Source: Tubulanus polymorphus (lineage: Eukaryota; Nemertea; Palaeonemertea; Tubulaniformes; Tubulanidae). From it: DNA of 64,000 nt. This document shows, piece after piece, positions 2,452 to 47,200 of the stretch (its first letter is position 1; every line of letters starts with the position of its first letter). The stretch covers positions 5,501,001 to 5,565,000 of the forward strand of contig NC_134031.1 in assembly GCF_964204645.1 (NCBI RefSeq), read 5' to 3'. A model generated the notes under the pieces. The model did no database searches, was not told where the DNA came from, and saw nothing but the letters and a program-made list of their open reading frames with translations. The translations under genes and the position numbers were made by a program.

Positions 2452-2745
2452 TTAACCCTTTCAGTGTGTCCAGACCGCAGAGCAGTGTATAAACTAGTGA
2501 TGGATTTTGCTAGTACACCGCACTGCGGTGTATTGATTTAATTAGTAATTAATAATTATCTCTTGAAAGATGGCAGCACCTGTCAAACAGAGTGAAATAT
2601 TAGTAACTAACGATACACCGCGCCACGGTGTAGACGCACTATAGTGGTATTCCCGTTATTCAACATACTAGAGTGGAATTTTTCAAAAATTTCAAATTGT
2701 CACCAGCACTATAGGGTATTAACTAGTCAGCACTAAAAGGGTTAA
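2452..2745 (+). mobile_element. TTAA MITE copy 1 (piggyBac-like)
   Basis: The element is bounded by TTAA on both sides. Its ends are CCCTTTCAGTG and, degenerately, CAGCACTAAAAGGG in inverted orientation. It contains paired ACACCGCA/TGCGGTGT palindromes and the shared internal segment GATGGCAGCACCTGTCAAAC. No transposase frame is present, so it must have been mobilised in trans. TTAA target sites plus CCC termini are the hallmark of piggyBac-type transposons. Confidence 0.8.
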
Positions 2746-3060
2746 GTGAAATATTTTTCCACATGAGTTAAGCGTGCCTGAAAATCAAGCGTAAATGAAG
2801 TGTCATCTGTTTGTTTATCGCGCAAATATTTCGGATACGTCGAAATTCAGGCGTGAAAATATTCGAATTCGAGTACGCCGCGAGAACTCGTCGCTGAGAG
2901 ACCATCGAGGATACGGAAATCATTTGACAACGTTTTACCATCTACTTAATATAGTCGGCGTATAATATCAAAACAATCAATAACGCCGGCTTCAAGCAGA
3001 CGCAAATATACCTAATGGAATCAAACTGGTCAGCGTAAGCTAACGGGGAGAGAGGAGGAG
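2746..3060. other. No gene seen
   Basis: AT-rich single-copy-looking sequence between a TTAA MITE and a SINE-like piece. No coding frame, RNA gene or repeat is recognised here. Confidence 0.5.
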
Positions 3061-3185
3061 ATGAAGAGGCAGATATTGAAAGTATGAAAAAAGGAAACAT
3101 CCTCCCCCGGCTGGGATTGGAACCTGATGGTATCCCTTCATTCAGCCAGGGCATGAACCCCTGCACTAAAAAACCCCGCCACACT
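3061..3185 (-). mobile_element. tRNA-derived SINE-like copy A (minus)
   Basis: Read on the minus strand, the piece begins with the leader TCTAGTGTGGCGGGG. It continues through an A-box-like CCTGGCTGAATGAAGGG and a B-box-like AGGTTCCAATCCC, then GGGGGAGGATG. The same order is found at 3693-3790 (plus) and 27,870-27,950 (plus). The A/B box spacing matches a tRNA-type RNA polymerase III promoter. It is inverted relative to copy B, with a minisatellite between them. Confidence 0.55.
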
Positions 3186-3692
3186 AGAAACTCTGCTCTG
3201 CCACACTAGAAACTGCTCTGCCACACTAGAAACCCTGCCACACTAGAAACTCTGCTCTGCCACACTAGAAACTCTGCTCTGCCACACGAGAAACTGCTCT
3301 GCCACACTAGAAACCCTGCTCTACCACACTAGAAACTGTTCTGCCCCACCAGAAACTGCTCTGCCACTCTCTCTGAAACTCTGCTCTGCCACACTAGAAA
3401 CTCTGCTCTGCCATACTAGAAACTCTGCTCTGCCACACTAGAAACTGCTCTGCCACACCAGAAACTCAGCTCTGCCACACTAGAAACTGCTCTGCGATAC
3501 TAGAAACTGCTCTGCCATACTAGAAACTGCTCTGCCACACTAGAAACTGCTCTGCCACACTAGAAACTGCTCTGCCACACTAGAAACTGCTCTGCCACAC
3601 TAGAAACTGCTCTGCCACACTAGAAACTCAGCTCTGCCACACTAGAAATCCTGCCACACTAGAAATCCTGCCACACTAGACTGGGTGCGATG
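3176..3692. repeat. Minisatellite, unit about 20-24 bp
   Basis: Roughly twenty tandem units of the form TGCCACACTAGAAACTGCTC fill the interval. Variants carry two to four extra bases (AAACTCTGCTC) or a shorter AAATCC unit, and the block near 3,480-3,640 is the most homogeneous. The unit core GCCACACTAGA is the complement of the leader TCTAGTGTGGC that begins both flanking SINE-like copies, suggesting that the array expanded from that leader. Confidence 0.85.
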
Positions 3693-3790
3693 GTCTAGTG
3701 TGGCAGGGTTTCACCATGGCTGAGTGAAACGATGCCATCACGTTCGAATCTCTGCTGAGGAAGCATGGAAGGGGAAAACCAGAGATGATG
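3693..3790 (+). mobile_element. tRNA-derived SINE-like copy B
   Basis: The leader TCTAGTGTGGCAGGG is followed by an A-box-like CATGGCTGAGTG, GATGCCATCA, a B-box-like CGTTCGAATCTC and CTGAGGAAGCATGG. It is the inverted partner of the copy at 3061-3185 and resembles the copy at 27,870-27,950. No poly(A) or short-repeat tail is evident, so the 3' limit is uncertain. Confidence 0.6.
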
Positions 3791-4440
3791 GTATGGGAAA
3801 CGTTAGTCATGGACAGGGAGATAAGAGAAAGGCTGTATTGATCATTCTGAATTCATTCCATGCCACCAGTAGTCTTTGTTTTCTCTCTCTCACTGCGGAG
3901 AGAGGTTTATCGCGAAGTAAATAACAGGACATCAATGAGCCCCGAACGCTCTTAATGAAATGGCAATAAAGAGCCCTATGTCTAATTTCCTTTCAAAGCT
4001 CAACCTGGACAGCGCGAATACAATATACAATCAGTATAGGTCCAGGGATAGAGGTGGAACGCGTGCTTCTGGTTTCCGGAATGATTAAGCGCGGAACATC
4101 AGTCTCAGGTACGCGAACAAGGACGCCGTGGTGAAAAGAATGATGAAAATAGACCTCTTTCATTAGTCGGTTAGCGTCTGGACCCGCGCAACCCTGATTG
4201 ACGACGAAGAATTTCTCCGTTTAACAGAAATAGCCCACATTTCATAGATATATAGATAAGGCATATTTATATTGATGAGTGTAACTGAATGTACGCATTT
4301 TATGATGTCATGAATCGAAATTGAATGACCAGAGCAAGGAGGCGAGGAACTTCAGCATTCAAGATTGCGATTGTAGGAAAAAGTGGACAAGAAAAAAATG
4401 GCCACGGAAATAAATAGCAGTACAGTTCTTTAAACTTCTG
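3791..4440. other. No gene seen
   Basis: No supported coding frame. The first part may be the body of the SINE-like copy that ends near 3790; the rest shows nothing recognisable. Confidence 0.45.
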
Positions 4441-4566
4441 GGGCCAGTTGCGTAGGCATGGCTTAGACTTAGGCTCAGTCTAAGACCAACGAAGTTCTAT
4501 AGCCAATCTAACAACTAAAGACAAGACTTACAATTTAAGACCACTTTTGGACTTAAGTCACGACCC
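4441..4566. mobile_element. GGGCCAGTTGC hairpin MITE (family B), copy 1
   Basis: The copy starts GGGCCAGTTGCG, contains GGCTTAGACTTA, CAGTCTAAGACC, TATAGCCAATCTAACAAC and CCACTTTTGGACTTAAGTC, and is followed directly by a family C element. Related copies lie near 16,469, 17,585, 18,402, 43,068 and 49,800. The element is short, self-complementary at its ends and non-coding. Confidence 0.6.
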
Positions 4567-4684
4567 AGGGGCAAGTTGCTTTAAAAGTTTGTTAAAGATA
4601 ACCGGCAGATAAATACCAACAATTGTCACCATGTCAACTGTCCACTGGTTAACTCTAACCAACTTTTGAGCAACTGGGCCCCAG
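4566..4684. mobile_element. Hairpin MITE (family C), copy 1
   Basis: The left end GGGGCAAGTTGCTTTAAAAG and the right end CAACTTTTGAGCAACTGGGCCCC are inverted versions of each other. The interior has GATAACCGGCAGATAAATACC and CCACTGGTTAAC. Copies recur at 10,701, 23,362, 51,985 (interrupted) and 55,258. It is non-coding. Confidence 0.65.
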
Positions 4685-6063
4685 CGTATGAATATTGTGA
4701 ATTTCGTTCGGTATTGCTGCTTCTGCCATCTAGTGGCATAATCCCATATCATCCACTGCCGATCGCTCGTGCTTCATGCTTTTTCCTCGAGACTTGTTCG
4801 TCATAAAAGGGTTATAATATAACAGAAGGAATGATAATTCTGGTCACGACACGGATCTCTTAACTCATTTTCCAGGGAAGCTCCAGCTATGAAAATTCGG
4901 AGTTATGCGACGATCAGGAAGGCTAGTTGCAATAGACGTACATGATTTTATTCTTCAGATTCACCGTCGAGTAACTTGGGAATACGCTGCAAGATGTATC
5001 AGGCTCCAAGAATCATTACACACTTAACTGCTTGTTTATGGATTTACCTTCTATTTATACAATAAGGGACCAACTGAGTGCATTTTCCTTTATTGAAAAA
5101 TTGTCCTGTGTTTAGCAATAACGTATCAAGATGAAATCTTGGTGCGCTGTGTACAACTTTGATGATGATATACATGGTAATCGGTTTTTCCCATGACTCA
5201 CTATATAGTACATGGCAGAGCTTTTTACACTATGTTCTATATGCATGTTCTTGATAATGACGTCATTGAACTTGGATGCTGAAGGGATTTCCCAATGATG
5301 TCATTATCAAGAAACCAGGTCAAGCACAGATTAGTAGAATGGGGAAAAATTCAGACAGTTTTTTTTTGCATTTTCTCCGCGTACTTCCAAACGGCACAGA
5401 GCTGATGGACAATACTCTCTCCATATTAATTCCAACCCCTATTTCCCTCCTCATGACAACATATCAGCCGTGTATATCCAGTGGCTACAATTTGTGCCAC
5501 CAACAGCTAACAGAAAGTTACACTCAGAACCATTCTATAAGGAGCATAGCAGTTGATCCTAAAAACTACAAAAGTTGACAGACATGTTTGAGTATACCAT
5601 TGATTATAAAATAAACTGTCATCACAGATGCGTAATTGAAAGATGTCTAATTGATTGTGTAATGAGTAATTAATTGCGATTAAAAACAATAGCAGATCTT
5701 TAAAACCATACGCGTATATCTTTTTTTACTAAATATCTTCGAAACATTTGGATCGTCGAAATAGAACGAGACAAACCTGACGCTCGTAAAGAAACACTGC
5801 TCATGTTCGATACCAACTAATGCAAGATGAAACCCTAGAATCAAAAGGGTAGAGGCAGGAGTGGATCGAGTTCAGTCTTATATATACAGAAACTCGTCAC
5901 GAGAGATTTTCCAAGAAAAATCCAGACGCATATTACACTAGCTTATTACTTAGCGTATTATGTTAGCATCTTAGCGAGCGGGTAGATAAATTTCAGAATC
6001 TAGTACTTTCCGTTCATCAGTATACAGACGATACATGCTTATAATATACGTATTAATACAGTG
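4685..6063. other. No supported gene
   Basis: One 100-codon open frame (plus 5276-5578) begins here but lacks a recognisable domain or splice support. I see no RNA gene and no repeat with clear partners. Confidence 0.45.
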
Positions 6064-6352
6064 CGGCGGATCCTGAAAATTTGTGTTCTTGATTTCTATA
6101 GTGTACCTTCGAAAACTGCAGAGCTTTGAAGAATTACGCTAGCATTTCAAACTCAATCGAACCTTAAGCCCTTATAGTGCAACAATTATGACTTCGATTT
6201 TCTTGGGCAGCGGATCCTGAAAATTTGTCTACTCGATTTCAATAGTGCACATTCAAAACCGCAGAGCTACGCAAGAACAATGCTTCATTTTAAACTTGAT
6301 TGAACCTAAAGCCCTAATAAATCAACAATTATGACTTCGGTTTTCTGGGGCA
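6064..6352 (+). repeat. Tandem duplication, about 145 bp x 2
   Basis: The segment starting CGGATCCTGAAAATTTGT and ending TATGACTTCG(A/G)TTTTCT..GGCAG occurs twice head to tail, at about 6064-6208 and 6209-6352. The copies differ by many substitutions, so the duplication is old. No coding frame spans it. Confidence 0.8.
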
Positions 6353-7179
6353 GGTCGAATCCACCTACCCTCCCCTTTTAGCATCCAGCCTCTTCTGATA
6401 ACCCTTCTTGTCAGATATCCTGAATGTAGTCTTGGCAGTCTTGGCGTTGGGACAAATACAGTCTAGTAACAAGCTGGATCCACCGCTGCATTATCGGAAA
6501 TAGTCATAATTCAAACCATATAATATAATATGGTAGCAAAAAGGCGAATTTACCTGCCTTTCATTAATCATAAAAACCGTTTTTATTGTCGAACAAAATA
6601 CGTTCTGGTGGACGCAAAGCCGAAATGGGGGCATTAACACCCCTCTTAGTTCGTTGTGCCTGCACTAAAACACGGGATATTTAGAAATGGGAAATGGAGC
6701 TGATAGTAGTCTCAACCTCTCCGTATGGTGAGGTCGAGAACAAGGGAGGTCGCGAGGACTGGAGTTGAAAGACAGTACCGGTGAGGTCTCTATTGATGAT
6801 CCGTTGGTTTTATGATGAATGATGAACGTAGTCAATTATTAACAATAATACTATTTATCCAACTGCTACGATAAAAACAATAAAACACAACGATGTTAAC
6901 GATGACATATGTGTAAAAAAATTGAATGAATGAGGTTTGTAGTGAATTGGTTCGAATGTACACAACTTCTAGCGAGTTAGGGGCTAATGAATCAGCGTTA
7001 GGTAGGTTGGTACAGTACAGGTACCCAGGGGTATACCTCGGGGTACCCTCGGTGCACCTGAGGGTATACCTCGAATACGTATAGAAGCATGGACATTGAG
7101 CGTTGGGTGTAAAGTGATTGCCCATGGGGGCAGCCATACCTAGTGAGAAGTTAACAACTTACAATTACGATGAATGCTT
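6353..7179. other. No gene; small GTATACCTCGG repeats
   Basis: No supported gene. Near 7020-7080 the words GGTATACCTCG and GGGTACC recur within 60 bp, which looks like a short local duplication leading into the tandem array that follows. Confidence 0.4.
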
Positions 7180-7690
7180 CCCAGCCCAGGGTACTATGAA
7201 CACTGCAGGAGCATGGAGGTGCTGGCCAGGGTTAGATTACTGTAGATATACCAAGTGCCCGGTGAAGAAGTACCAGCCTGGGGTTCATTGAATACCGTAG
7301 GAAGTATTGCCTAGGGTACTTATATTACTGTAGATATATGGTACGGGTATCCAGTGAAGGAGCATCAGCCTAGGGTTCATGGAATACCGTAGGAGCATGG
7401 AGGTGCTGCCTAGGGTTTAGACTACTGCAGATATACAGGTACCCAATGAAGAAGGACCAGCCAAGGGTACTTACATTACTGTAGATATATGGGATGGGTA
7501 CCCAGCGAAGAAGGGCCAGCCTAGGGTACATTGAGTACTGTAAGAGCGTGGAGGTGCTGCCTAGGGTACTTATATTACTGTAGCTATATGGGATGGGTAT
7601 CCAGTGAGGGTACTTAGAATATTGCAAGAGTGTAGAGGTGTCCACCAGGGTACATTGAATGCTGTAGAAGTGTGAGCACCGAGTGAAGAG
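7180..7690. repeat. Degenerate tandem array, unit about 100-130 bp
   Basis: Four to five diverged units repeat the order CCAGCCTAGGGTTCATTGAA, TACCGTAGGAGCATGGAGG, TGCTGCCTAGGGTACTTA, ATTACTGTAGATATATGG and GATGGGTACCCAGTGAAG. Individual blocks have been shuffled or lost between units. A minus-strand open frame crosses it, but this follows from the repetition and is not evidence of a gene. Confidence 0.8.
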
Positions 7691-8639
7691 TATTCGCCCT
7701 TGTGAACACTTCAGTATCATAACATTTCTAGTTGTTGCGTCTGATATTGTGCAACAATCCGCGAGGGCCGTTATTCCCGTTTGAACGATCACCTTTTCAC
7801 CGATTGATTGGTTATTTTTTTACCAACCGGTGTTACACGTTGTTGTAGATGCCAAGATGAGCCCTGTTACCATGGCGACTAAAAGAACGTTCAATCTGAC
7901 GGGGAGGAGGGCCGCCGCCGTCGTAGTCACCGCAAACGCTTTTATCGTTTGTATATCGAGTTTTTTCTTTTTTCGAGAGTTGTTGATCTTTTCGCTGCTG
8001 CTGCTGCTGCTGTGATGGTGTTACGACAACAGTGGCTAACGGAACCGACCTCAAAACAAACAGCTAGAAATATCCACCTGTTAAACTCTTCTTCGGAGAC
8101 CGAGACTTCCGCACATATGTAACAAGTCTTTCTTTGACAACGTAATGGCCGTTATAATAATGTTTATATCATACATTGATACCTAGAATGCATTGTTCAA
8201 GGGGCTCTATTTGAGTCGATGCGCACATCATCAATATCGGCACACGAATAAAACAATTACAATTGTGAATTTTGGTGTTTATTTTGTTTTCAAATATATT
8301 TCTAGACTCATTATTCTATTTTGGAATTCAAATCCGAAATAGCTTTATTGGTCTTTGATATATAATTCATATTTTATCATCAATTGTCAACAATATCAAG
8401 CAATGCTTCATCTTTCAAGGCATCGATTAACTTTCACTTGTTAGTTTTTTAGTTGAATCCACATTCGTCATCTATTGCTTGTAGTTTATGACTTAAAACC
8501 GTAAAACATAAAACAATCAAATAATGATTGCGCCATATCATATCATTTTCAAATTCCCTAAGTTTTTATATACTCTAAAAGTAACAAGCCACAGGTAATG
8601 ATTCTTGGGCTTGAACTCGAATTCCGAAATTTCCATGCA
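7691..8639. other. No gene; one dispersed repeat copy at about 8130-8280
   Basis: No supported gene. The part at about 8130-8280 (GTTATAATAATGTTTATATCA, ACCTAGAATGCATTG, GGGGCTCTATTTGAGTCGATG) matches 12,095-12,220 in the same orientation, so it is a two-copy dispersed repeat of unknown type. Confidence 0.45.
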
Positions 8640-8965
8640 CTAGTGCTAATTGCATTTTGGATATGTCGTATCTTGGGCCAATAGCAAAATTTTATCAAGA
8701 CAACTCATTGAATTTCGACCGCGTCCCTCAGTTATGAGGTCATCTTCGAGGCCATGTCGCTGAAAAACAGTTTTTAGTGCCCAGTTAGCTAGGCCCATTC
8801 TTTGCACTGCACAACTAGACCCCTGTACTAACATTGCACCCAAGATTCATCAAGATGAACCCGATATTGATGAAGCTAAGTAGCTGAAAGACAGATACAA
8901 AGACAGACACACGTAGACAGACAGACAGACAGACAGTCACGCATGCAGACAGACACGAGAATAAG
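8640..8965 (+). mobile_element. Possible retroelement 3' tail with (ACAG)n
   Basis: A segment ending with ATTCATCAAGATGAACCCGA and then a run of GACAGACAGACAGACAGACA occupies this interval. Ends of this style, a 'TTCATCAAGAT' block followed by an ACAG microsatellite, are typical of non-LTR-type elements in marine invertebrates. No reverse-transcriptase frame is visible, so this is a tail fragment at most. Confidence 0.4.
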
Positions 8966-9524
8966 GATCTCACGGAAACCCGAGAACCAAAATTATACCT
9001 TCCGCAGTTGCTTCGCGCGAATGATTAACAAAAAAAAAACCAGTCGATCTATAGCGGCGAAATTAGGCACGCGCTTCTCATGCAACTTTTATCATATTCG
9101 GCAGTTCACTTTTCAGATCAATAACTGGGGCTAAATTAGCCGGCAATCTACGTCTCGATGCGAAACGAGACAATGCGTAACGTTTCGGTTAGATTTCCGA
9201 TAAAACTCTCTATATTGATGAATGCATGTTTTACCGCAGTGAGTGATGATGATGAGGAGGACGACGACATCGGTAATGGCAACAGGCAAATTCACGGGCG
9301 ACGGTAAAAGCTAAACCGACTGGAATGATATTCGTTGAATAAACGGCTACTATCGGAGCGCTTGTTCTTCGTATTTGCCCGTAGCGTTCGGTATATATTT
9401 GCATACGCGGCCGGCTCTGAAAGTATATACGCTGAATCCGATGATGATTTACCTACACGCGCGCGATTACTGATTTTCGACGGGCTCGAAAAATGGTTCG
9501 ACTGATATCATCATCATCGGTGGC
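8966..9524. other. No gene seen
   Basis: Moderately CG-rich, non-repetitive sequence with no coding frame that I can support. Confidence 0.45.
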
Positions 9525-9745
9525 ATCTTCTGCCGTATGAGCCACGATTTGGCATAGGCCAAAATTGGTCGGCGCCTTAACCACTCATTTGATACTAAAC
9601 GATGCTTTAACAAAGCATTTTGAGACACTTCCTGAACCAGTCGCGATTCAAACGCAATAAGTTGACCCGTGCTTGAATTTGGCTCGGGTCTAGGCCGTCA
9701 TTTTTGGTCGGGCTGAACTTGGCACGGGCCAAAACGCTTGTGCAA
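9525..9745. repeat. Dispersed repeat, copy 1 (partner at 57,128)
   Basis: The words TTTGATACTAAACGATGC, GAACCAGTCGCGATTCAAACGCAATAA and the many GGGCCAAA/TTTGGC(A)C(A) blocks match 57,128-57,475, where they appear in the same order. GGGCC...GGCCC-type ends suggest a hairpin element, but its limits are unclear. Confidence 0.55.
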
Positions 9746-10700: not shown

Positions 10701-10832
10701 AGGGGCCATTCGCTGAAAAGTTGGTTAAAAGATAACCAGTGGATAAATACTTAAGTAACATTGAACTTGTCACTAGATATCTCGACTATCCACTGGTTAC
10801 TTCTAAACCAACTTTTCAGCAACTGCAGCCCC
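10701..10832. mobile_element. Hairpin MITE (family C), copy 2
   Basis: It starts CAGGGGCCATTCGCTGAAAAG, ends CTTTTCAGCAACTGCAGCCCCTG, and contains GATAACCAGTGGATAAATAC and TATCCACTGGTTA. The inverted ends pair over most of their length. Confidence 0.7.
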
Positions 10833-10937
10833 TGAAATCTGTATTTCTGTAAAACATTTTAGATATTCTACCGTCATTCCGATGTACTTAATCCAAAGCC
10901 AAGTGGGATACACTCGCCAGATGGTGCAACAAAATAC

Positions 10938-11050
10938 CTGGCCCCGGCTTTAAAACTGGTATTATCTGTAACCCGGGGGGGCTAACTCAATTCATTTTCA
11001 ATCGAGTTAAACCCCAGGTTAAAGGTAATACCAGTCTATAAAACGGACCC
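10938..11050. mobile_element. Short hairpin element
   Basis: The left arm GGCTTTAAAACTGGTATTA and the right arm TAATACCAGTCTATAAAACGG are complementary, and further GGCCCCGG / CCCCGGG ends bracket them. The centre is TTCATTTTCAATCGAGTTAA. It resembles the other short hairpin MITEs of this window in structure but not in sequence. Confidence 0.55.
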
Positions 11051-12500: not shown

Positions 12501-12503
12501 AGA

Positions 12504-12952
12504 TACGGTCAAACCCACTTAATCCGTATCGGCTTAATCCAGATTTTGGTCTAATCCGGACATTATTTGCAGTCCATTTGTTCATTAACCCTTTCAGTGC
12601 GGTGTATGAATCGGTGATAGATTTTGCTAGTACACCGCACTGCGGTGTATTGATTTAATTAGTAATTAGTATTTATCTCTCATAAAAATGGCAGCACCTG
12701 TCAAACATAGTGAAATATTAGTAACTAACTATACACCACACCGCGGTGTAGACGCACTATATTGGTATTCCTGTTATTCAACACATTAGGGTAGAATTTC
12801 TAAAAATTTTCAAATTATCTCCAGCACTATAGGGAATTGATTTGTCAGCACTGAAAGGGTTAAAACACAAGAAAATGAGTAATCTGGATTTCCCGTAAAC
12901 CAGATGAATTTTGTTCGTCCCGAATCATCCGAATTAAGCGGGTTCTAATGTA
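12504..12952. mobile_element. Pogo/Tc1-like element interrupted by a MITE
   Basis: The left end TACGGTCAAACCCACTTAATCCG and the right end CCGAATTAAGCGGGTTCTAATGTA are inverted versions of each other, each bounded by TA. The inside repeats CTTAATCC/GGATT words. The element is split at 12,585-12,863 by a TTAA MITE. TA boundaries and a CAG(T)-RAACC-type terminus suggest a Tc1/mariner-pogo relative; no transposase frame is present. Confidence 0.6.
12585..12863 (+). mobile_element. TTAA MITE copy 2, nested in a pogo-like element
   Basis: It is bounded by TTAA on both sides with ends CCCTTTCAGTGC and GCACTGAAAGGG. The internal CACCGCACTGCGGTGTA palindrome and GATGGCAGCACCTGTCAAAC-type segment (here ATGGCAGCACCTGTCAAAC) are present. 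Its insertion into another element gives the relative age: the host element is older. Confidence 0.85.
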
Positions 12953-14521: not shown

Positions 14522-14810
14522 TTAACCCTTTCAGTGCGTCTTCACCGCAGTGCAGTGTATAAATCAGTGATGGATTTTGCTAGTACACCGCACTACGGTG
14601 TATTGATGCAATTAGTAATTATCTCAATTGATAGATGGCAGCACCTGTCAAACATAGTGAAATATTAGTAACTAACGATACACTGCACTGCGGTGTAGAC
14701 GCACTATAGTGGTATTCCCGTAATTCAACACACTAGGGTTGAATCTTTCAAAACTTTTAGATTATCCCCAGCGCTATAGGGTATTAATTAGTCAGCAATG
14801 AAAGGGTTAA
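14522..14810 (+). mobile_element. TTAA MITE copy 3
   Basis: TTAA flanks both sides. Ends are CCCTTTCAGTGCGTC and CAGCAATGAAAGGG. Two internal ACACCGCACTACGGTGT/ACACTGCACTGCGGTGT palindromes remain nearly intact. Confidence 0.85.
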
Positions 14811-16468: not shown

Positions 16469-16596
16469 TGGGGCTAGTTCCATAGTCACAGCTTAGACTT
16501 AAGATCAGTCTACAAACTTCTTGGTTATAATAGCCCATCTAACAACTTAAGAACAGTCTTAAGATTTAAGATCACTTTTGGACTTAAGTCTCGCCT
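16469..16596. mobile_element. Hairpin MITE (family B), copy 2
   Basis: It starts TGGGGCTAGTTCCATAGTCA, continues AGCTTAGACTTAAG and TAGCCCATCTAACAACTTAAG, and ends near CACTTTTGGACTTAAGTCTCG. It is a diverged copy of the family described at 4441. Confidence 0.55.
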
Positions 16597-17584: not shown

Positions 17585-18015
17585 AGGGGCCAGTTGCACA
17601 GTCGTGACTTAAGTCAAAAAGTGGTCTTAAATCTTAAGACTGATCTGAAGTTGTTAGATTGGCTATAGAACTAAGTTGGTCTTAGACTGGTTTTAACCCT
17701 TTCAGTGCGTCTACACCGCAGTGCGGTGTATAAATCAGTGATGGATTTTGCTAGTACACCGCACTGCGGTGTATTGATGTAATTAGTAATTTGTAATTAT
17801 CTCTATTGAAAAATGGCAGCAAGTGTCACACATAGTGAAATACTAGTAACTAATGATACACCGCACTGCGGTGTAGATCACTATAGTGGTATTCCCATTG
17901 TTCAACACACTAGGGTGGAATTTTTTAGAATTTTCAAATTTTCTCCAGCACTATAGGGTATTAATTAGTCAGCACTGAAAGGGTTAAGTCTAAGCCATGA
18001 CTATGCAACCGGTCC
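17585..18015. mobile_element. Hairpin MITE (family B), copy 3, split by a TTAA MITE
   Basis: The left part begins GGGCCAGTTGCACAGTCG and runs to 17,692 through AAAAAGTGGTCTTAAATC and TTGTTAGATTGGCTATAGAAC. The right part, 17,988-18,015, completes it with GTCTAAGCCATGACTATGCAAC. The ends pair as an inverted repeat once the inserted TTAA element is ignored. Confidence 0.8.
17693..17987 (+). mobile_element. TTAA MITE copy 4 (best-preserved)
   Basis: This is the most regular copy. TTAA lies on both sides, and ends are CCCTTTCAGTGCGTC and CAGCACTGAAAGGG. Three internal palindromes are intact: ACACCGCAGTGCGGTGTA, ACACCGCACTGCGGTGTA and ACACCGCACTGCGGTGTAGA. Because it interrupts a family B element cleanly at TTAA, its exact boundaries are certain. 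Confidence 0.9.
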
Positions 18016-22795: not shown

Positions 22796-23044
22796 GAAAC
22801 CCTTTCAGGCATCTACACTGCAGGTAGATACCTGACGCCTTTGCAAGTACACCACATTGCAGTGTATCAATGTTAATAGTTAATTGTTTTTATCTCTATT
22901 GAAAGATGGCAGCAGTGAAACAGTGAATCATTAGAAAATAACTAACGATACACCGTACCGCGGGGTAGATACACCAGTATGCCGTTATTCAACACAGTTC
23001 TCCAGCACTTTCAGGTATTTATCAGTCAGCACTGAAAGGGTTAA
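22796..23044 (+). mobile_element. TTAA MITE copy 5 (degenerate left flank)
   Basis: The copy begins CCCTTTCAGGCATC and ends CAGCACTGAAAGGG followed by TTAA; the left TTAA has decayed to TGAA. It lacks part of the right-hand interior and has mutated palindromes. It lies in the intron or 5' flank of GUCD1. Confidence 0.8.
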
Positions 23045-23984: not shown

Positions 23985-26900
23985 ATGGAAGAAGGTCAAA
24001 GGAACGTATTAAGGAGGTTGAGACCTGAACTTGTGAATGACATTCAAAATCACGGGCGTTTATTCGATGTTTTGGAGTCTAAACGAGCACTCCCAAAATC
24101 TATCATCGATAAAATTAGAGTAAGTCCTGCTGAGGAGTAAGTCTAGCTAATGACTGATGATTATGTGTATTTGTCACAAAATTATCACATCTACTAGTAG
24201 AGTATATTTTACAAGTTCTCTAACAGTAGGCCCATCGCCTCGTTGAGGCCCAGTTTAGTTTCATTTTGAAGACACTTTCTTTCCCTCAACAATCATCTGC
24301 AATAATGGATGGGAGGGGCTTTTGTGCAACCCCTTAGGGAGCGTCTCAAAATTTCAAAAGTTGGTCAATTAGTATAACTGTCTAATTCGTTTTAATTAAA
24401 TTTTTTTTTGCCATATTAAAGTTTATTATCAAATGTACAAATACAAGAAGACAGTTTATACGCTAGCAAAACGTCGATCTGACATTTTGTGTCTTTTTAT
24501 CTGACATTATGACTGTCAAATCGAGGACAGTTTTTTTCTTACAGTCGTTATCCGATGAAAAAGAACAAATTCGACAAATGTTGGACCGTCTTCAGAAACG
24601 GCCGGTGTTCGACGCGTTCTACGACTGTCTAATCGAGAGCGATAACGCATCGATCGCCGATCTATTAAAACCCGAATTAGCGGAGGATAGGAAAAGTTGG
24701 GAATCGTTGAATAAACGCAAGACGAGTTACAGCGCGATCGTGCCCGGCGGTTCGGGTAACGGCGGCATCGGCGACGGACTTGCTGAAAGAGTTGTGAATA
24801 GGTCAGAGGTGCGCAGAGGCAGCGGCAGCGTTCAAACATATCAGCCCAGCGAAGATGTCGAAAACAGGAGCTTATCTGGAGGTACGAATTGATGAATTAT
24901 AAAAAGAAACAACTTCTGCTTTTCGAATGATTATTTCATATATGTATCCCCCTTATCAAACTGTGATTACTGCTACGTTGATTATTTCTTGCAATATCAT
25001 TAATGACAATTTTAAAGTGTGCATGTTGTGTGTTTTTTATATTTCTCTTCTCCTTGTTCACTTATGTTTTATTTTTTGAGGGACTCATTTTACTGTTTCT
25101 ACAGCCCCTCCAAGTCTAATTCGGTGTATTTTGTACTTAAAATCTGTGTGCATTATGCTGTAAATTATATTTGATATTTGAGCATTCAATACCAATAGCA
25201 ATGACTGATGCTCATTCTGGACCCAGTTTCAAGGTTAAATTTAACTCCTGAGATTAGAAAACCTCATTATTTCCCTGTTGATTCGACTGCAGAGTCAAAT
25301 ACATGTATGAGCTCAGTATTGTGGTACTAGGTCCCGGCTTATTAAAACTCTGTGGTCGACCATTTCTTGAAAGAGATGATGAGTGTGGTGGTTGATTTTA
25401 CTGGATTCCGGTGCCACTTTTGAATCGGCTCCCACATCTCTTTGCGCTGCTAACACATCTTGAATCGCTTGTGGTGGGTTGGCTCTAAACATAAAGTATT
25501 CCTTCAATTTGGTCGATGCTCCACAGCTCGGTTGCTTCTGTTTTGCGCGACTTTCCTTTAACCTGTTTGTTGTATAACCCGCTTTACAAAATTTAGCGAT
25601 AGGCTGATTGAATACTCATACCAAATTTCTGCCATAAATTAATGCGATATCAATGTGGGGTTATCTTGTTGATTTCATTTTGCAGATGGGCCGGACCCTG
25701 AATGGTCACCTGATAAAGTGGTAGTTTTCCCGACGGATTCTCAATACATCACAGAATTGTATAGAACCAGAAGTTCGAAGGTAGATCAGGTTTTGAATTC
25801 TAGTTTACATTTCAATTGTTTTTTCAGCCCATTCAGAATGTGACTCCCGGTGGGCTATTGCATTCACTTTTCATCCGTATGTAGACTGAATCTAGGAGGT
25901 ATTAACACGCTTAAATTAACATACGGTCCTGATTTTTGTATGTATCTACCTTTAGCCTCTGCATACATTCACCCGGGGGTGTTGAATGACACAGTATTTC
26001 AATGTAAGCTGTCCCCAAAAAAGTGTACCAAATACAAGCTGTCCCTAGTTTCATTAATAGTAATGTTTTATATGCAGTGAGTTTCAATATCGTTGGTTTC
26101 TGTATATGTTCTCCAGGGGGTGTTGAATATCAAAATTTTCAGATTGTTAAGCATTTTAGACTACTTTCCAAGTAGACATGGTGATCCTGGAACCCGAGTT
26201 TAACCCTATCAGTGCTTTAAAGTTATCAGTCGCCAAAGTGCTGGAGATAATTTGGAAATCAATAAAAAAATTCTAGGCTAGTGTATTGAATAATGGGCAT
26301 AATGCTTTTGTGCATCTACACCGCAGCGTGATGTATCGTTAGTTACTAATACTTCACTGTTTGACAGGTGCTGTCATCTTTCAAGAGATAAACCTAATTA
26401 CTAATGATATCAACACACTGGATGTGGTCTACTAGAACTCCATCACTGATTTATTCGCCGCACTGCAATGTACTGAAAGAGTTAGGATCTAAATTGCGAT
26501 TTTTATGGAATAACTACCCTATCATGTATTTCAGTGTTATAATATGCATACGCATCCTCGTGGCCGAGCGATAGTGGCGTATAACAACAAATTCCCAGCA
26601 GACATTTTGCGAGGCACGTTTCAACGTGAAAATGATTTGAAGGCCGTGGAAAGATTACTGGAAGGATTAGAATTCAATGTTACCTGGTGGCAAGACTGTT
26701 CTAAACAGGTATATTGCAGAGTTTCTTCTTTTGGACCTATGCCATTACAGTTTATAAGTTTTATTCATTCTTGTTACATCAGATTACGATAAGGTGACAA
26801 AATGAATTAAACTATCCAGAAAATATGGATTTACAGGGGTGGATCTAGGAGATTGGAAGACAGGAGTCTAGAAGAAAAGACTAAAGCATTTTTCAAATAA

Positions 26901-29247: not shown

Positions 29248-29559
29248 TTAACCCTTTCATTGCTGACTTTCAATACTTGAAGTGCTGGAGATAATTTGGT
29301 AATTCCACCCCAGTGTAATGTGTAGCAGGGAGTTTTTGGGTATCCTGATCTGAAAGAGCAGGCACACTGCTTTAGTTCGTATACACCATGGTGCGGTGTA
29401 TCGTTAGTTACTAATACTTTGCTATATTTTACAGGCCATCTTTCAATAGAGATAAAAATTGATAACGAATAACATAAATTCACCGTAGTGTGGTGTATCA
29501 GCAAAGTCCATCATCGATTTATACACCGTACTGCAGTGTAGAAGCACTGAAAGGGTTAA
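29248..29559 (-). mobile_element. TTAA MITE copy 7
   Basis: TTAA flanks both sides. Reverse orientation; starts CCCTTTCATTGCTGAC and ends GCACTGAAAGGG. Three decayed palindromes remain (ACACCATGGTGCGGTGTA, CACCGTAGTGTGGTGTA, ACACCGTACTGCAGTGTA). Confidence 0.85.
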
Positions 29560-30573: not shown

Positions 30574-30892
30574 TTAACCCTTTCATTGATTAATTAATAC
30601 CCAAAAGTGCAGGTGATAATTTGAAATTTAAGAATAATTCCACCCCAGTCTGTTGAATATTTGGCATACTGCTATAGTGTACGTCTAGATCTCAGTGCAG
30701 TGTATCGATAGTTACTACTATTTCACTATGCTTGACTAATAACATTAATACATTGATTTATACATGGCACTGGAGTGTAGATGCACTGAAAGGGTTAGTT
30801 ACTAATATGCCACTATAACAGATGATAGTGCGGTGTACTAGCATCATCGATTCATACACCGCACTGCAGTATTGACGCACTGAAAGGGTTAA
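30574..30892 (-). mobile_element. TTAA MITE copy 8, with an attached partial copy
   Basis: A reverse-oriented copy runs from TTAA at 30,574 to AGGGTTA near 30,797. It is followed without a gap by the distal third of a second copy (GATAGTGCGGTGTACTAGCA to CACTGAAAGGGTTAA at 30,892). The structure looks like one insertion into another or unequal exchange between two copies. Confidence 0.75.
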
Positions 30893-30975: not shown

Positions 30976-36534
<5,559 letters not shown>

Positions 36535-36566
36535 TCTACAACTGCCTGATGAGGTGGAGTGGCATC

Positions 36567-36630: not shown

Positions 36631-37003
36631 TTAACCCTTTTAGTGCATCTTCTCCGCAGTCTGGAGTATAATCGGTGATTGGCTTTGTTAGTACATTGCG
36701 TCAAGTGGTATTGATGTTATTAACCCTTTCAGTGCATCTATAGTCTACAGCAGTGCGGCGTATAGTTTGGTAATGGACTTTGCAAGAACACCGCACTGCG
36801 GTGTATAGATGTAATTCGTTAAGATGGCAGCACCTGTCAAACACAGTTAGATAAAGTAAGTAACGATACACCGCACTGCGGTGTAGACACATTATTACTG
36901 ATGCCTGATATTTGATGCACTAGGCTGGAATATTCAAATATTTTCAAATTATCCACAGCACATTAGGAATAGGGTACTAATAAGTTAGCACCCAAAGGGA
37001 TAA
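36631..37003 (+). mobile_element. TTAA MITE copies 9a (partial) and 9b
   Basis: A truncated first copy (36,631-36,719, TTAACCCTTTTAGTGCATC to TATTGATGTTA) is cut by a fuller second copy beginning at the TTAA of 36,720-36,723 and ending near 37,003 (GCACCCAAAGGGATAA). The second retains two good ACACCGCACTGCGGTGTA palindromes. The rest of the first copy is missing, so deletion accompanied or followed the insertion. Confidence 0.8.
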
Positions 37004-38030: not shown

Positions 38031-38253
38031 AGCCTGTTAGTACCTCAACCTCATACTATCTATGCTTGTGACCCTTACCTACCTTATCTTAATACATAAC
38101 CAGGTCCAGTCCTGCGTCGGGTCAGTCCTGGCCCAGAGAAAACCTTATCCGTCGCACTACATTCCAATGGTACCTAAAAGGTTAATCGGTACTTTTGATA
38201 ACTTTTTTTCTAGAGTTATAGCTTTAAAACGCGTGCGAAGAAATAACGGGACG

Positions 38254-41200
38254 ATGAATTCCGGAAGCGAAGAAATCCTCGAGTTGATCCGGCACCTGAA
38301 GCAGGAACGACTGTTCGTCACGTCGGAGAAATACCAGCTGCAAAAACTAAACGAAAGCGTCCACAAAACTGCTGAGACCCTGTGTCACCTGGCGTGGATC
38401 GCGCGCGAGCAACGCATAAACCTCGAATCTTTGCTACGCGGCAATCCCGACTCGTCGCAACACGCCAGTTTCCACAAAGCGAATGCGTTGGAAGTCGTCA
38501 AGTTCGTCGACGCGTATCGACACCTGAGCTACCACGAGTCGAAATTCAGCGAGTTCTTCAAATCGTTGCGCGCGTCGCCGAAGCTGCTCGCCGCATGTTT
38601 AATCCGCGACAAACAACAAAGCGGCGTCGCGACGCAGAACATCGTCGGGATTATCATTTCGGCCGTTTACGCGAATTGCACGCTGCAAGAAGACGAACAG
38701 TACGTGTTGCAGATCACACGCGCGTTGATGGAAGCGCAGCTGCTCGGTAGCGACGACCCGGCGCGTGTCCTGCGCCGGGGTACGTGCGCGTTTTCGGTCA
38801 TCTACAAACAACTGATCGAAGGCTCGTACGCGGCGCGTCTGTTTCTGACCGCGGCGTTGAACGCGCCGGTCATGTTTCTACTGAAAGACTTTGAGTGGTT
38901 CTACGACGTCGACGCGGAAAAAGCGCTGCAACGTTTCTCGACGCTCGAACGCAAGCGCCGATTCGGCGCGAACGGCACCGACGCGTACCGCGTGAAAACC
39001 GGGGAGTATCGCGATTTCATCGTCAACAAGTTGGTCCAGTTGACCGAGTGTTTCATCGCCAGTATTAAGAAAACGATGTACTGCTTCCCGGCGAGTTTGT
39101 CGTGGATCGTTTCGCAGATGAACTACATTCTGACGAAGGACGGTAAAGTGTCGGCGGCGAAAGCGCGCGAAATGTGCATCGATTTGATATTCACGAAGTT
39201 TATCTGTCCGGCGATCTGTGACCCGGCCGCAGTTGGCATTACGTCCGACGTGCCCATCAGTTATATCGCTCGACACAATCTGATGCAGGTCGCCACGATA
39301 TTGCAGGTGTTGGCCATTTCGCAACAACACGAAATGGATAGCCGGGCGAAGGATGTTTATGGTAGATTTGATCGGGTGAGTTTGTCTTAAATGTAGCACC
39401 CGTTAGGTCCGCTCTGAGGGTCTGCTCTGTGCTACATATGTACTATTTCAATCTTGGAACCTACACGGTTTGGTTTTTAAAGGAAAAAGTGTCTCCTTTG
39501 GTTATTATCCCTTTTAAGCCCAAAGCTAATTAAAGGTGAGTGTGTGATGGCACATTTCTCATCACCTGCCTTAATTAGTTTCCAGAGAGGGCATCTTTTA
39601 AAGCGAATGGCCGGTATGATTGGTGGGGTGGGACAGAATCAGATCTGAACAGGCCTATTTCCCATCTAATTTCCACTCGTTGGCGGTTGCTTGAAAAAGG
39701 TGCTTTAATGAGTTATTTTCACAATCCTCGAATTCGTAGAGCCATGTCTTTAGATACGGAATATATCAGAAATTGACCGTTTTATCCCTTCCGACCATTC
39801 TGGAATAAACCAGATTCATGTTGAGACAAGATAAGTGATGAATGATACAGACAATGTCAAATCAGACTCTGACCTCTTTCACACCATATTCATTATAATG
39901 CCTGATTCAACTTGATTACAAGTTTTTAGTCTGTTGTGCAATTAACATGCATAACAGGTCTGATATAAGAGAAGTGAAACCCATTATTTCACTAACAACT
40001 TCAATTAGGGCTCTCCATGTGAGCCATTAATCATGTACGGATTTGATAAAATCTGGATTAGATTTTTCTTGATTAGGCGAGTTTAACTGTACTATTACAG
40101 CCAATTCTCCTACAGAGGCAGATCTTGAGGTCAATTTTGAAGGACTCGGTCACACCCCAAAAGGGCACTTCGATGTCCGAAAAAGGGAATATTAAGCATA
40201 CCCCCACACTGAAATGCACCTGTTGAATTTATTGACATAATGAAAAAGGCACTTCAAAATATTTTATGGCATAAGCATCCCCCTTGTACTATCTTTTACA
40301 ATCATGTTTATTTATTTTAGCACTGTTTGTCGTCGTTGTTTGATCCGATGTTGGAGATCCCGTCGTCAGCCTTGCCGCCTCAACCGAACTGTCAATTACC
40401 GGGTGTCGATCGTTCGGCCGTGCTCATCACTCCCACTGAATTGAATGATCTGGTAAGAGATCGAGTATTTATATCATGTCGGATAGTTTCGATGAAAGTA
40501 CGAAACTTTTGGGGAATTTTTTACTGAGTTTACTTAACCCTTTCAGTGCTGACTAATCAATACCCTATAGTGCTGGAGATAATTTGAAAATTTTGCAAAA
40601 TTCCGCTCTAGTGTGTTGAATAACGGGAATACCACTATAGTGCGTCTACACTGTGGCGCGGTGTATCGTTAGTTACTAGAATTTCACTATGTTTGACAGG
40701 TGCTGCCATCTTTCAATAGAGATAATTACTGATTACTAATAACATCAATAGCAAAATCCATCACTGATTTGTACACGCGGTGTAGACGCTCTGAAAGGGT
40801 TAACAGGATCCTGACAACTCCTCGATTCCTTGAAAACGCCGTTCAAACGGAAAATGTTTTCAAAGGTGCTTGAAGCTCCTTTATTTTGAACAAAATGCCC
40901 AAAACTCCTTTGATATTCATTGAATTTTGAGAAATAAGCAATTAGATTATTTTGTAGTTGTAGAGAAAACTATGCTTAAATTGGTACAATCGGCCCGAAG
41001 ATAAACAGTTATATATCAGAGATGTACTGATTTAGAAGGAGTCTGCTGTAAGATTTGGATATGAAAGTGATAATGCAGTCACTCCTCAAAATTTGAAATT
41101 TCCTCCTTTAAAACCCTTTGCATCCAGGAATTACCGATCTGTTGGAACCCTTCCATAACCTATCTAATGAATTGTAAATGCTCTTATGACTTGGAGTGTA

Positions 41201-44200
41201 TGTTTTGACTTAAATCTTAAAGACTCTGAAGAGTGTGAAATGTTAATATTCATCACATGAAATGTCTTTCTATTAATGTTATGTTTGTAGATTACATTCT
41301 TGCAAGGAATTCAGTTGAATTTACCGGTCGATGACGAAGATCGTAAATCGCTGGACGAAATGTTGAACAATCTTCCAAAAAATGTCATTCAGACGACGTC
41401 GACGCCTAGTTCAACCCCGTCAGGCACACCGCCTGGAACACCTTCATTTCCTGCTAAAAAATCGATGAAGGGTATGTCTCGAATCTTTGAGGCCAGCTAA
41501 GAATATATTTATCTTAGGAGGCTTTTTTAATCTCAATCCATTTATACCACTTAACGAGAGGGAGCAGTATAAACAATTCAAAATTTTTGTTTAACCCTTT
41601 CAGTGCGTCTACACTGGAGTGCGGTGTATAAATCAGTGATATATTTTGCTAGTACACCGCACTGCGGTGTGTTGATGTATTTAGTAATTAGTTTTTATCT
41701 CTTTTGAAAGATGGCAGCACCTGTGAAATATGGTGAAATATTAGTAATTAACGATCCACCGTGCCGCGGTGTATACGCACTATAGTGGTATTCCCGTTAT
41801 TCAGCACACTAGGTTGAGATTTTTCAAAATTGTCAAATTATCTTCAGCACTATAAGGTACTATTAAGTCAGCACTGAAAGGGTTAAACCCTTTCAGTGCT
41901 GACGAATCAATCCCTGAAAGTGCTGGTGATAATTTGAAGTTAAAAAAACTCCACCACAGTGTGTTGAACTTGAATACTGGACATATTGCTTTAGTGCATC
42001 TATGCCATGGTGCAGTGTATCGTTAGTTACTAATGTTTAAATGACAGGTGCTGATATCTTTCAATAGGGATCAATAGAACACAATACGCTATGATGCGAT
42101 GCGGTGTACTAGCAAAGTCCATCACCAATTTATACACCGTACTGCGGTGTTGACCTACTAAAAGGGTTGACATTTCGTCACCTTTACTAATCGAAATTTG
42201 ATGGTCGGTTTGTTTATTTAAGGCAAGAAGAAGTCTAGTATATTGACCGTAGAAGATGTCGTAGTCGATGAAACCATCGAGCCCGATCTCTTTCAGCCAG
42301 AAGACGTACTAGTAATCAGTATAAATCAATCGGGTGACTGCCTGGGTATGATGTCTGAAGATAAGGTTCGTATACATTCTTAAAGCTTGTGGCACTTATA
42401 AACCGAGTCTTTTGAGTATAGGAATGTTTTGCTCAATTCCTCCATTTTTAGACTGGAGAAGGGTGGTAGGAATCACCTGAAATATTTGTTGTATTTTAGA
42501 TCAACTTTTTAGTCTTTCAACAATTGTGGAATTTTACATTTATTGTCTCAATATATTGCCGGATATTGAACACTATGTCATTTTGCGAAAGTCAATGACT
42601 TGTGCATATTGATTAATTCTGATGTCACCTTGCGGGTGTGTTTTGTCGACGTAGGTCGTGCAGCAGGAGCAGGAAGTTCATCAGCGTAAGATCAAACAGA
42701 ATTTCTATCCCGGCTACGATGACGGCGAAGACGTCAACGAGGAGGAAGTGCAAGAAAAACGAACTCGATTTTCACTTTCGCACGATCAGGATTCGATAGG
42801 TGTGTGCTGTGCATATTACAGCATATATGATAGAATCATTTATTTGATCTATAATATAGTGTTTAACATTCGTACAATAAGGGGTTTATTCAATGATAAT
42901 TTTAGTCAGGGTCCCTCCTTGATTCCTAAGAAACTCCTTAAAAACGGAAAATGCTCTTGAAGTTGCTTGAAGCTCCTTTTATTTGAACGAAATGCCCAGA
43001 GCACCTTTGAAACTCGTTCAATCAATTTTGAGAAATAGGGCAATACCTAAGATTCTGCTGCCCGGTTAGTGCACTGTCATGGTTTCGATTTTATTATCAG
43101 TGTTAGACCAACTTAGTTTTATAGCCAATCTAAGAACTTAAAGACTAGTCTTGAGATTTAAGACCACTTTTGGACTCAAATCACAACTGTGTGACTGGCC
43201 ACTGATCTTTTACTATTTCCACCTGCATTTTCTTCTGATTACTATAAAATTGCCTGAAATTCATTTATTTGAATATACGCATATTTATTGAACGTTGTAG
43301 GAAATACAAGTGATAACATAGAAGCAATATCCGAAGCGTGCTCTAGTCATTCGGTGGAATCTACCGATTCCGTTAACGGAGAAAATGATAATCTATCGGA
43401 CATGTTCTCGGCTAACGTCAGCGGTCGCGAAACTCCAAACATCAGCGGTCGAGACACGCCTCTATCACAGGTAAATGCAGGACAGATTCTCTGTTAGTGG
43501 GATGATGAAGTAATTCCAGGGGTCAGATTGATGTGGAAAATGGATGTCTTCTGCCTTAAAAATTGTTAACAGAAATCAGTAAAAAATGATGAACATGTGT
43601 GAAAATATAAGAAAATAATTTGGTCAAAATGTTTCAATCCCCCTTTTATACCATATTCCGTGGAGCTAAGAATTTACGCGCGAGCTATGTTTAAGTTTAA
43701 GAAATTTTAATCGAATCTGTCCAGATTGTGACCAAGTAATCACTTAATCACTTGTGTTATTTCAAATGGAAAAAAATGTGTGAAAACATGTGAAAAAAGT
43801 GAAAGGTCTCAATATTTTGTTGTGAAAATAATGCGAAAAAAAGCCACCCCTACAATTATTGATGATCGTAGTTATTTTCAAGTGCTTTTCAAAATGTGTT
43901 TATTGACGTTTGTAAAATGCTTTTCAGGCGGAAAGTGAAGAAGTTTTAGCTGAACAAGAAACTCGACGAGTTCCCGATTTGCCGGTCACGGTGCATAAAT
44001 CTAACCGCGAAGACGTCACCGAACGATTTCAGAAATTCGACATCAAAACTGAGCTCGAACGTGAGTTTCAATCAGGCGTGGATTTAGGGGTGGTGGTCTC
44101 GGGGGTCCGGACCCCTTCCTTCCCATTGAGGTGTCCCTTTTCATCGAGGCAGAGATCGTTAAAACCTGTATCGGCCTATTTGACACTCATCTTCTCGGAA

Positions 44201-47200
44201 ATTGCAACCTTTCGAATTCGTGTCTTCAAAAAATTTCTAAAACCGAGGGGAGAACCACGCGGCAGAAGAATTGAAGCTCTCGACTTGGCTGCTTTATCCA
44301 AAAAATGCCTTTTCTTTTCTTCTCGTCCATGGTTTCCTAGATCCACCGTGTCTAATTATCGTTACCATTTAGATCGTAGAGCATCCATTAAAATTTCTGT
44401 CCTTTTAAAAAAAATTATAAAAAACTATACTTATGCTATTCTATACTAGGTCAAGGTCGTAATTCATCCCTGTATCTGCCAGATGAGATTAAGTCGACGG
44501 TCAGCGATACGTGGAGCACAGACGTATTGGCGAGCGATTCCGAGCCGCCCGATTCGAATCAACTCGATCGTCTAGAGGAAGTTGCCGAAGAGATCGTTAC
44601 TAATGGTAACCTGATGGAAGATCAGGAGGTTCCTGTTTTCAATTTGTTGCTGTCGAACTCTTCGGTGCCCGACGTAGGCCCACCGGTTCGAGGCAGTTCT
44701 TTACATGTAAGTTAACACTGGTATTTTGTTATTCATCCCTCAACAGGAATTTTGTGTAATCACATGGAAAAATCTGGCAAAACTCTAGGATTTTGTAAAG
44801 TGGCCATCCTGTTGGAGGAATTACCTGGTGGGAGGTTACTTCTTCTATGTCAATGAGAGAGTCCAGTGATGAACCACTGACCGCTACCTGGGATTGAACC
44901 AATGAACCTTGTATTGACAATGCCAGTGTGTTAGATGGAATAAAACCATTCAAACACTACACCACAACAGTCCTGTATTTCCAAACGTTTGCTGATTTTA
45001 AGATACCTTTTGGAACTAAATATGTGAATAACGTTACAATATAATAATAATACCGTTGATAATTCGCAAGTCAAATCTGGATAATGTTAGATTGAAATTG
45101 TCAACTATGAGATAACTAGTTGTATAGGAATTCATAGTTTGAACTGGCAACGCTGATCGTGAATGTGTTAGTCTTCAAAATGTAACCGAATATTAATTAT
45201 TTGATTTCGGAAGGTGTCGGAGATGTCTGAAACGGCAAGTGAATGTTGGAGTACGGACGTATTAGCCAGCGACACGGACGAAAAACAGTCGGAACGATTG
45301 TTGGAACTGGATCAGGATGATTCGATCAGTATCAGCAGCAAGAGTCAGGGTATCGAGGACAATATGTCTGAATACAGTGAGACAGGTTCGTTAATGATTC
45401 GATATATACCCGATTACTATAGGCCTATATCAGTTTAAACCACTCTTCTAAGTAAGTTAAAAGCCCACTATATACAAAATTTAACCCGAGTTTTAACAGA
45501 ATTTGAAAATTCCAAAGTCTTAACCCTTTCAGTGCGTCTACACCGCAGTGCTGTGTATAAATCAGTGATGGATTTTGCTAGTACACCGCGTCGCAGTGTA
45601 TTGATTTAATTGGTAATTAACTCTCTTGAAAGATGGCAGCACCTGTCAAACATAGTGAAATAATAGTAACTAATGATACACCGCGCCGTGGTGTAGACGG
45701 ATTATAGGTGGTATTCCCACTATTCAATACACTAGGGTGGAATTTTTTCATCTCCATCACTATGGGGTATTAATTAGTCAGCACTGAAAGGGTTAAAAGA
45801 TTAAAAGCGACGAAGATCTCTAGTGAGAGTTCGAAACATGGTGTCTTTTAATTTTGATTTTCGATTAGTAAAATTCGCTTTTAATCATCTTTTAAACTTT
45901 GGGTTTTAAACTTTTTATCTATTCTCCACGTTAGAGTAAGGGCTATTCTACTATACTGAGGCTGCAGGTGTTGATCGGTCTCAACCACTGTATAAATGAT
46001 GAATGAAGATGATAAAAAATTGACAATATTATTTTTGTTTCAGGTCCCGACGTACAGAATTTAGATGATATAGTGGCGCCTGAAATTCCGAACAGAACTT
46101 CGACGAAACTGAAACTATCCCCGCGTCCGCCACATCGACCCGACAACTTCCTCGCGTTCGGCGATTCGGAAAACCCGCCACGTGAACTGACGAACGAAAT
46201 ACCCGATTCGCGAATCGACGACGTCTTCGACAGCGATTCATCGGCGTCGATTCTCGATCGCGTCGGCGAAAAAGCGAAATACCGTCGGTCGTCGCACGAC
46301 CGGCGCCTCGTGATACCGGACCTGGACGTCGCGTCGCCTGACCTCGGCGTCGAGAGCATGGACACGACGCCGGACGCAGGCGCCGCGTCGCAGCATCTCG
46401 TGCTCGGGTTGCGTGAACGCGATTCGGGAATCTCCGAGACGCCGATCGACGAATCGAAAGACGCCGGAGGAGTGATCGGCGCGGTCGCCGATTTGCACAA
46501 CTCGTTCAAATCGCTGAAATTAACCGAGCAGCAAAATACGAAAATCGACGCGAATCGTTTGTCGGCCGCGATTTCGATGTTCGACCCAATCCTGCAGGAA
46601 AGCGACGACGAGGTTAAAGAAGACGTCGCTATGGCGACCGGAGCGGCGAAAAGTGGTTCGTTGCTCGTACAGCTGGACGATACAGATGAAAAGGTAACGA
46701 GTAGATAAATGTGTTTCTTATATAGAGAATCCTACACTAATTTAACGATGAAGTCCGAATAGTTTACTTTTGGCTAATAATTTAGGCCTATTGATTCGAC
46801 GTTTCAAATATAATCTAATAGCTTAATCACTCTCTCTATATTGTCGCAACACTGACATAATGTTTCACCAATGACGAGAGAAATCCCACAATAATGAAGC
46901 CAAGATTGAAAAATTCTATATCAGAATGATTATATTTGAGGAGCGACGTTTCGGCTAACAACTGTTAGCCATCATCAGGCGTACTCAAAACTCAGTACGC
47001 CTGATGATGGCTAACAGTTGTTAGCCGAAACGTCGCTCTTCAAATATAATCATTCTGAAATAGAATTTTTCAATATTGGCTTCATTATTGTGGGATTTCT
47101 CTCGTCATCATCATACACGGATATTGTGTATCTTCTCGTCTAATGTTTCACCAATGATAAAAATGTGTTTCTTATTGCGGTCGAAGACCATATAGGCATC

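Follow-up and report, generated by a model that had tools for sequence, protein, structure and literature searches.

A TTAA-inserting MITE family of Tubulanus polymorphus with palindromes placed like transposase sites of piggyBac elements

In the genome of the nemertean Tubulanus polymorphus (268 Mb, 77 contigs) we describe a 288-bp non-coding element that is quite probably a non-autonomous transposon of the piggyBac superfamily, with internal palindromes acting as sites for dimers of the transposase cysteine-rich domain (CRD). The window analysed here, the whole stretch of 64,000 nucleotides at C7:5,501,001-5,565,000, holds 13 full or nearly full copies of this element and two extra left-end fragments (Table 1). 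A copy of the same element was found at each of the 13 places listed by the initial annotation, although the one put at 41,883 is better placed at 41,884-42,170. The element is short, non-coding, present in high copy number, uniform in length and bounded by TIRs, as a MITE should be, and it is a new family in a known kind of piggyBac MITE. It adds an animal MITE family with a PGBD3-like layout of three palindromes inside 288 bp.

The 12-bp TIR CCCTTTCAGTGC, allowing up to two mismatches, was found at 32 places in the window against 2.79 expected, the highest count among 100 shuffles being 8. Genome-wide, TTAACCCTTTCAGTGC occurs exactly 2,740 times and its reversed control not once, and the 28-base left end has 586 exact occurrences, or 1,202 if one mismatch is tolerated (none for the control). 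A genome DNA search with the 17,693 copy, proposed with the first description of the family, returned 3,010 candidates; all 40 that were scored are full length with 98-100% identity, and the preference for TTAA holds among the genome copies. The 288-bp consensus was built from the 30 best genome matches, all of which are 287-289 bp long and 28 of which have TTAA at both borders. It carries CCCTTTCAGTGC at both ends, in agreement with the superfamily definition in the cited section, namely TIRs of 12-19 bp with a CC[C/T]T tip (PMC2872659). One copy in the window is young (17,693; 98.6% identity to the consensus) and the other twelve are older, with 68 to 90%. When 359 kb were searched for other TTAA families (ends of the form TTAACC[CTA], with 11 or more matching bases among the 14 of the TIR and less than 4.5 kb between them), only ends of the 288-bp family were recovered. 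In the literature library searched, the TIR string is contained in seven papers, none of which deals with transposons, to judge from their titles and the beginnings of their abstracts.

The family inserts at TTAA. This sequence stands on both sides of 41 of the 51 copies that were aligned over consensus positions 8-288, and is missing on at least one side of the remaining 10. The TTAA borders originally ascribed to all the window copies hold for 8 of the 13; the rest do not have TTAA on both sides, as in the copies at 22,796 (GAAA at one side) and 26,200 (CTAA at one side). The TTAA target duplication typical of piggyBac is also visible at empty sites. In fact, the sequence on either side of the 17,693 copy belongs to another repeat, which is found without the insertion at window positions 4,440-4,564 and 16,477-16,596 and at three more places. 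Of the five junctions examined, three have a single TTAA and the other two a sequence close to it, TTTA or CTAA. Moreover, an insertion at locus L030 has an empty relative, with TTAA, at locus L010.

Several side observations concern individual copies. The repeat into which the 17,693 copy inserted belongs to a second repeat family (GGGGCCAGTTGCAC...), with several occurrences in the region. At loci L002 and L011, near 1497-1792, two near-perfect young copies are bordered by TTTA/TTTT and AAAA/TTTT and not by TTAA, for which non-TTAA insertion or longer excised ends are possible readings. Locus L024 has three left ends of the element within 1.8 kb; a left end at 1833 is interrupted inside P1 and continues into non-MITE DNA. 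The same locus holds, at 2702-3239, a copy interrupted by some 235 bp of DNA that is foreign and in part complementary to itself, flanked on both sides by consensus positions 155-166, a possible target duplication.

Table 1. Copies of the 288-bp element and their parts in the window (identities are to the 288-bp consensus)
Feature	Position	Strand	Remarks
MITE copy	2452..2745	+	89.5%; P2 perfect, P1 and P3 decayed
MITE copy	12585..12863	+	P1 deleted
MITE copy	14522..14810	+	89.2%
Host repeat copy, empty at the 17,693 insertion point	16477..16596	-	another at 4440-4564
Youngest window copy	17693..17987	+	287 bp plus TTAA on both sides; 98.6%
Left 12-bp TIR CCCTTTCAGTGC	17697..17708	+	17,693 copy
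28-bp unit AGTGCGTCT+P1	17704..17731	+	17,693 copy; consensus bp 8-35
P1, putative CRD-dimer site	17713..17729	.	17,693 copy; bp 17-33 from left tip
P2	17756..17772	.	17,693 copy; bp 60-76 from left tip
P3	17858..17874	.	17,693 copy; bp 162-178, i.e. bp 111-127 from right tip of consensus
Right 12-bp TIR	17972..17983	-	17,693 copy
MITE copy	22796..23044	+	68%; old lineage
MITE copy	26200..26485	-	76%; old lineage
MITE copy	29248..29559	-	TTAA on both sides
Shortened MITE copy	30574..30798	-	
Extra left-end fragment	30827..30892		after the 30574 copy
Left-end fragment	36631..36722	+	consensus 1-93; adjoins the 36720 copy
MITE copy	36720..37003	+	P2 and P3 perfect
MITE copy	40534..40803	-	P1 and P2 broken by deletions, only P3 visible
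MITE copy	41591..41886	+	
MITE copy	41884..42170	-	old lineage; adjoins the 41591 copy; decayed borders
MITE copy	45520..45796	+	

Three palindromes, each of the form ACACCGCA-N-TGCGGTGT, follow the left TIR (bp 1-12) of the consensus: P1 at bp 17-33, 4 bp inside that TIR, P2 at bp 60-76 and P3 at bp 162-178, 98 bp inside the right TIR. P1 and P2 are repeated at a distance of 43 bp. The regular spacing attributed to the palindromes at first is right in that their places are fixed, but these are uneven, successive starts being 43 and 102 bp apart. The claim of up to three palindromes per element stands, since one to three are recognisable in every window copy (at most 4 mismatches, centre free). 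All three are perfect only in the 17,693 copy among those of the window, where the exact 17-mer ACACCGCANTGCGGTGT occurs eight times. P1 of the 12,585 copy seems, from the sequence, to have been lost by a deletion between two AGTGCG motifs, at bp 8 and bp 24 (window 12589-12610), which makes this copy a natural P1 knock-out. The 28-bp unit composed of AGTGCGTCT and P1 is present in the consensus as an exact inverted repeat around P3 (right-end bp 102-129); in the 17,693 copy the P3-side unit has changed and matches the AGTGCGTCT+P1 unit over 22 bp. AGTGC occurs additionally at right-end bp 8 and 32. To judge from this arrangement, the element is made of two unequal ends, each with a core motif plus palindrome unit, and of an extra palindrome on the left.

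P1-P3 are most likely CRD-dimer sites because their positions resemble those in piggyBac, piggyBat and PGBD3/MER85; a palindrome just inside the left TIR, at bp 17-33, is found both in the MITE and in the long relative described below. The initial annotation had held such palindromes to be unusual for a piggyBac-type MITE. This view is rejected and corrected here, since the cited parts of the literature report palindromes at such places for Trichoplusia ni piggyBac, piggyBat and PGBD3/MER85. In the mechanism that we propose, a piggyBac-type transposase encoded elsewhere would excise the MITE and insert it at TTAA; two transposase dimers would be loaded at the left sites P1 and P2, which are 43 bp apart, and P3 would assist in pairing the ends, as in the tetrameric complexes of piggyBat and those proposed for piggyBac. 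The CRD binding, the tetramer and the transposase that moved the young copies are what we infer.

The genome contains 120 matches to the piggyBac domain PF13843 (DDE_Tnp_1_7), many of them in open frames of 500-700 aa. When 386 of the 586 exact left ends were compared with 115 of these 120 matches, one left end was found within 4 kb upstream of a match on the same strand. Since 0.20 such pairs are expected by chance and at least one occurs in 18% of shifted sets, proximity alone proves nothing and is only a lead. The left end concerned, with its tip at C4:17,827,830, does not belong to a MITE, as seen in the 341 bases examined. Its bp 1-77 are 88% identical to the young MITE consensus and 91% to the old one, with P1 at bp 17-33 (ACACCGCAGCGCGGTGT) and P2 at bp 60-76 (ACACCGCGACACGGTGT), at offsets identical to those of the MITE; 27 of the 28 arm bases of P1 and P2 are kept and 4 of the 6 centre bases are changed. 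Differences from the MITE fall on 1 of 28 arm and 4 of 31 spacer sites, too few to separate the two. After P2 the number of matching bases in 10 drops from 8 to 3. The frame MAAHRPKRRRFTLDQALDSI begins with an ATG at bp 262 and runs to the end of the examined piece; we take it to be a piggyBac-like N-terminus, and its first 20 residues had no match in the PDB. The PF13843 domain follows on the same strand at a distance of 1,616 bp.

The MITE-free part of this element has one other genome copy, at C6:12,991,870-12,992,113, which is 99% identical and is followed after 1,596 bp, in the same orientation, by a PF13843 match. Because the C4 and C6 copies have the same layout, a chance neighbourhood of left end and domain seems unlikely. 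The domain frames of both copies contain in-frame stops. The longer piggyBac relative that the initial annotation suggested looking for was thus recovered as to its left end; for the right end, 461 bases taken at C4 did not match the MITE anywhere and included a TA repeat. Right ends of the old MITE type were found at 61 places, none of them near the C4 or C6 elements, and the exact TIR in a different subterminal context was found at 24 places, of which none, on inspection by eye, is close to a PF13843 match. Sequence comparison thus shows that the left end of the MITE is also present in a long piggyBac relative, which is a candidate mover of the young MITEs. The assignment to a piggyBac type has the support of the use of TTAA, the paralogous empty sites and a long relative whose matching left end lies upstream of PF13843 on the same strand. 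By eye, PF13843 matches crowd in mid-contig (C4 8.9-19.3 of 27.4 Mb, C7 9.2-14.2 of 21.6 Mb); the exact MITE left ends, among those listed, are commoner toward contig ends.

The palindromes might instead be bound by a dimeric host factor of transcription or replication, or form cruciforms, and contribute in that way to the spread or regulation of the element, which we regard as improbable. As DNA hairpins, the 21-mers of the 17,693 copy have folding energies between -8.0 and -8.3 kcal/mol, where shuffled sequences average -1.6 to -1.8, but hairpin folding is a property of any short palindrome. On the other hand, three features match transposase sites: the place at bp 17-33, the repeat at 43 bp, and the joining of palindrome and AGTGCGTCT in a 28-bp unit of both ends. 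P1 and P2 also recur at identical offsets in the transposase-linked long element.

We give equally little credence to the palindromes being functionless relics of an ancestral element, with copies that hitch-hike. The initial annotation had proposed to test whether they are more conserved than the spacers among aligned copies, and had named the contrary result as a refutation; taken literally, that result is what the decayed copies give, since the palindromes are hardly better conserved: non-CpG mismatches in the 13 copies of the old lineage amount to 46/370 (0.124) in arms and 349/2,401 (0.145) in spacers, and those in the 8 copies of the middle lineage to 14/224 and 113/1,607. Both the small difference in decayed copies and the lack of signal in the middle lineage are compatible with relics. 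Yet the comparison among decayed copies alone was discarded as an unfair test, since drift is expected in dead copies and the palindromes are rich in CpG; neutral decay and CpG loss predict that palindromes should be hardly better kept there. In the old lineage, the mismatch rates at CpG sites are 0.257 for arms and 0.333 for spacers, and those at the other sites are 0.124 and 0.145. Two observations speak against relics: the homology with the long element stops right at P2, and the arms are unchanged between old and young consensuses (0/42, with 0/24 in the TIR), while 2/9 centre and 23/213 spacer sites (two of the latter being gaps) have changed. With lineages grouped by eye on identity, non-independent sites, and old and middle copies all from one 264-kb region, arms differ from spacers at Fisher p=0.018 and are less changed in 99.3% of bootstraps of the 13 old copies. 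Between middle and young consensuses the changes are 10/213 in spacers, 2/9 in centres, 1/42 in arms and 0/24 in the TIR (arms vs spacers p=0.70). The constancy of the arms between old and young consensuses may be regarded as a weak signal of palindrome conservation.

The centres of P2 and P3 are one or two bases off in the older consensuses and are exact (inverted) P1 copies in the youngest lineage, which is also the most uniform. It is conceivable, if unlikely, that the last burst was triggered by selection for tighter transposase docking, through perfect palindromes forming a full set of three sites within 288 bp. Such a record of selection would be suggested because only bp 1-77 are common to the MITE and its relative and because the P2 and P3 centres became P1 copies; if this were true, the family would be a natural record of it. 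A series of this kind, in which one genome has both a transposase-linked relative and lineages that differ in age, could show which sites a piggyBac transposase requires.

Another TTAA-using superfamily is a very improbable mover of these copies: Kolobok, for example, uses TTAA too, and the long relative is matched at the left end only, but the tips are CCCTTT and the left end is common to an element with a downstream PF13843 domain.

The high density noted from the outset is real: the window has 14 exact TTAA+TIR ends where the genome mean would give 0.65, an excess of about 20-fold, and the adjoining 100 kb contain 7 upstream and 0 downstream (1.02 expected each). TTAA frequency does not explain it, with 7.75 TTAA per kb in the window, 7.02 upstream and 6.28 downstream. 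At C7:5,461,000-5,547,000 there are 24 copies of all ages, together with fragments, in about 86 kb, followed by nearly 70 kb with none. Since copies of the old, middle and young lineages are interspersed, the cluster gathered over time. The window also contains host gene parts, namely a RasGAP domain (38041-39390) and a guanylyl-cyclase domain (PF09778, 21986-22774), further host genes for a rhodopsin-type receptor (47932-49038) and a tRNA-Arg (58264-58336), and a long GA/CT-rich simple repeat that is open in several frames (32625-32958).

Comparison with known systems places the family among piggyBac elements whose ends carry palindromes. The CMITE families of Acropora are similar in their TTAA, their mostly CCCTTT ends and a piggyBac-like relative that has only short end sequences in common with them; unlike the present element they are about 100 bp long, and the first part of the Results and the Discussion of their description name no palindromes. 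In T. ni piggyBac, according to the cited passage, the left-end palindrome bound by two CRDs occupies bp 17-33 (PMC7351741), exactly the place of P1; TTAA is used and the repeat is present on the right end too, but the left palindrome is single, the right one is nearer the tip (31 bp inside the TIR) and the sequence is different. piggyBat of Myotis lucifugus has, in the part of the work cited, a left-end core motif with an imperfect palindrome every 44 bp, two such units binding two transposase dimers (PMC11707139), as with LE88, where two sites are bound by two dimers; here P1 and P2 are 43 bp apart. In the cited section of a 2026 preprint the piggyBat transposase is a tetramer, and CRD binding to the second palindrome is argued to serve synapsis (PMC13405395). 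The right end of piggyBat is without a palindrome, whereas the MITE has P3 there. The closest layout is that of the human pair of long parent and MITE, PGBD3 and MER85, in the portion of the paper cited (PMC3459987): three copies of a 16-bp palindrome are found in PGBD3, of which the first is close to the 5' TIR and the last lies 114 bp away from the 3' TIR, and MER85 has kept one, 3 bp inside the 5' TIR and 96 bp from the 3' TIR, to be compared with 4 bp for P1 and 98 bp for P3. MER85 differs in having one palindrome instead of three, of unrelated sequence. According to the same portion, palindrome changes lower binding to MER85, and a perfect match to the palindrome consensus is present in 291 of 363 bound but in 48 of 526 unbound MER85s (PMC3459987).
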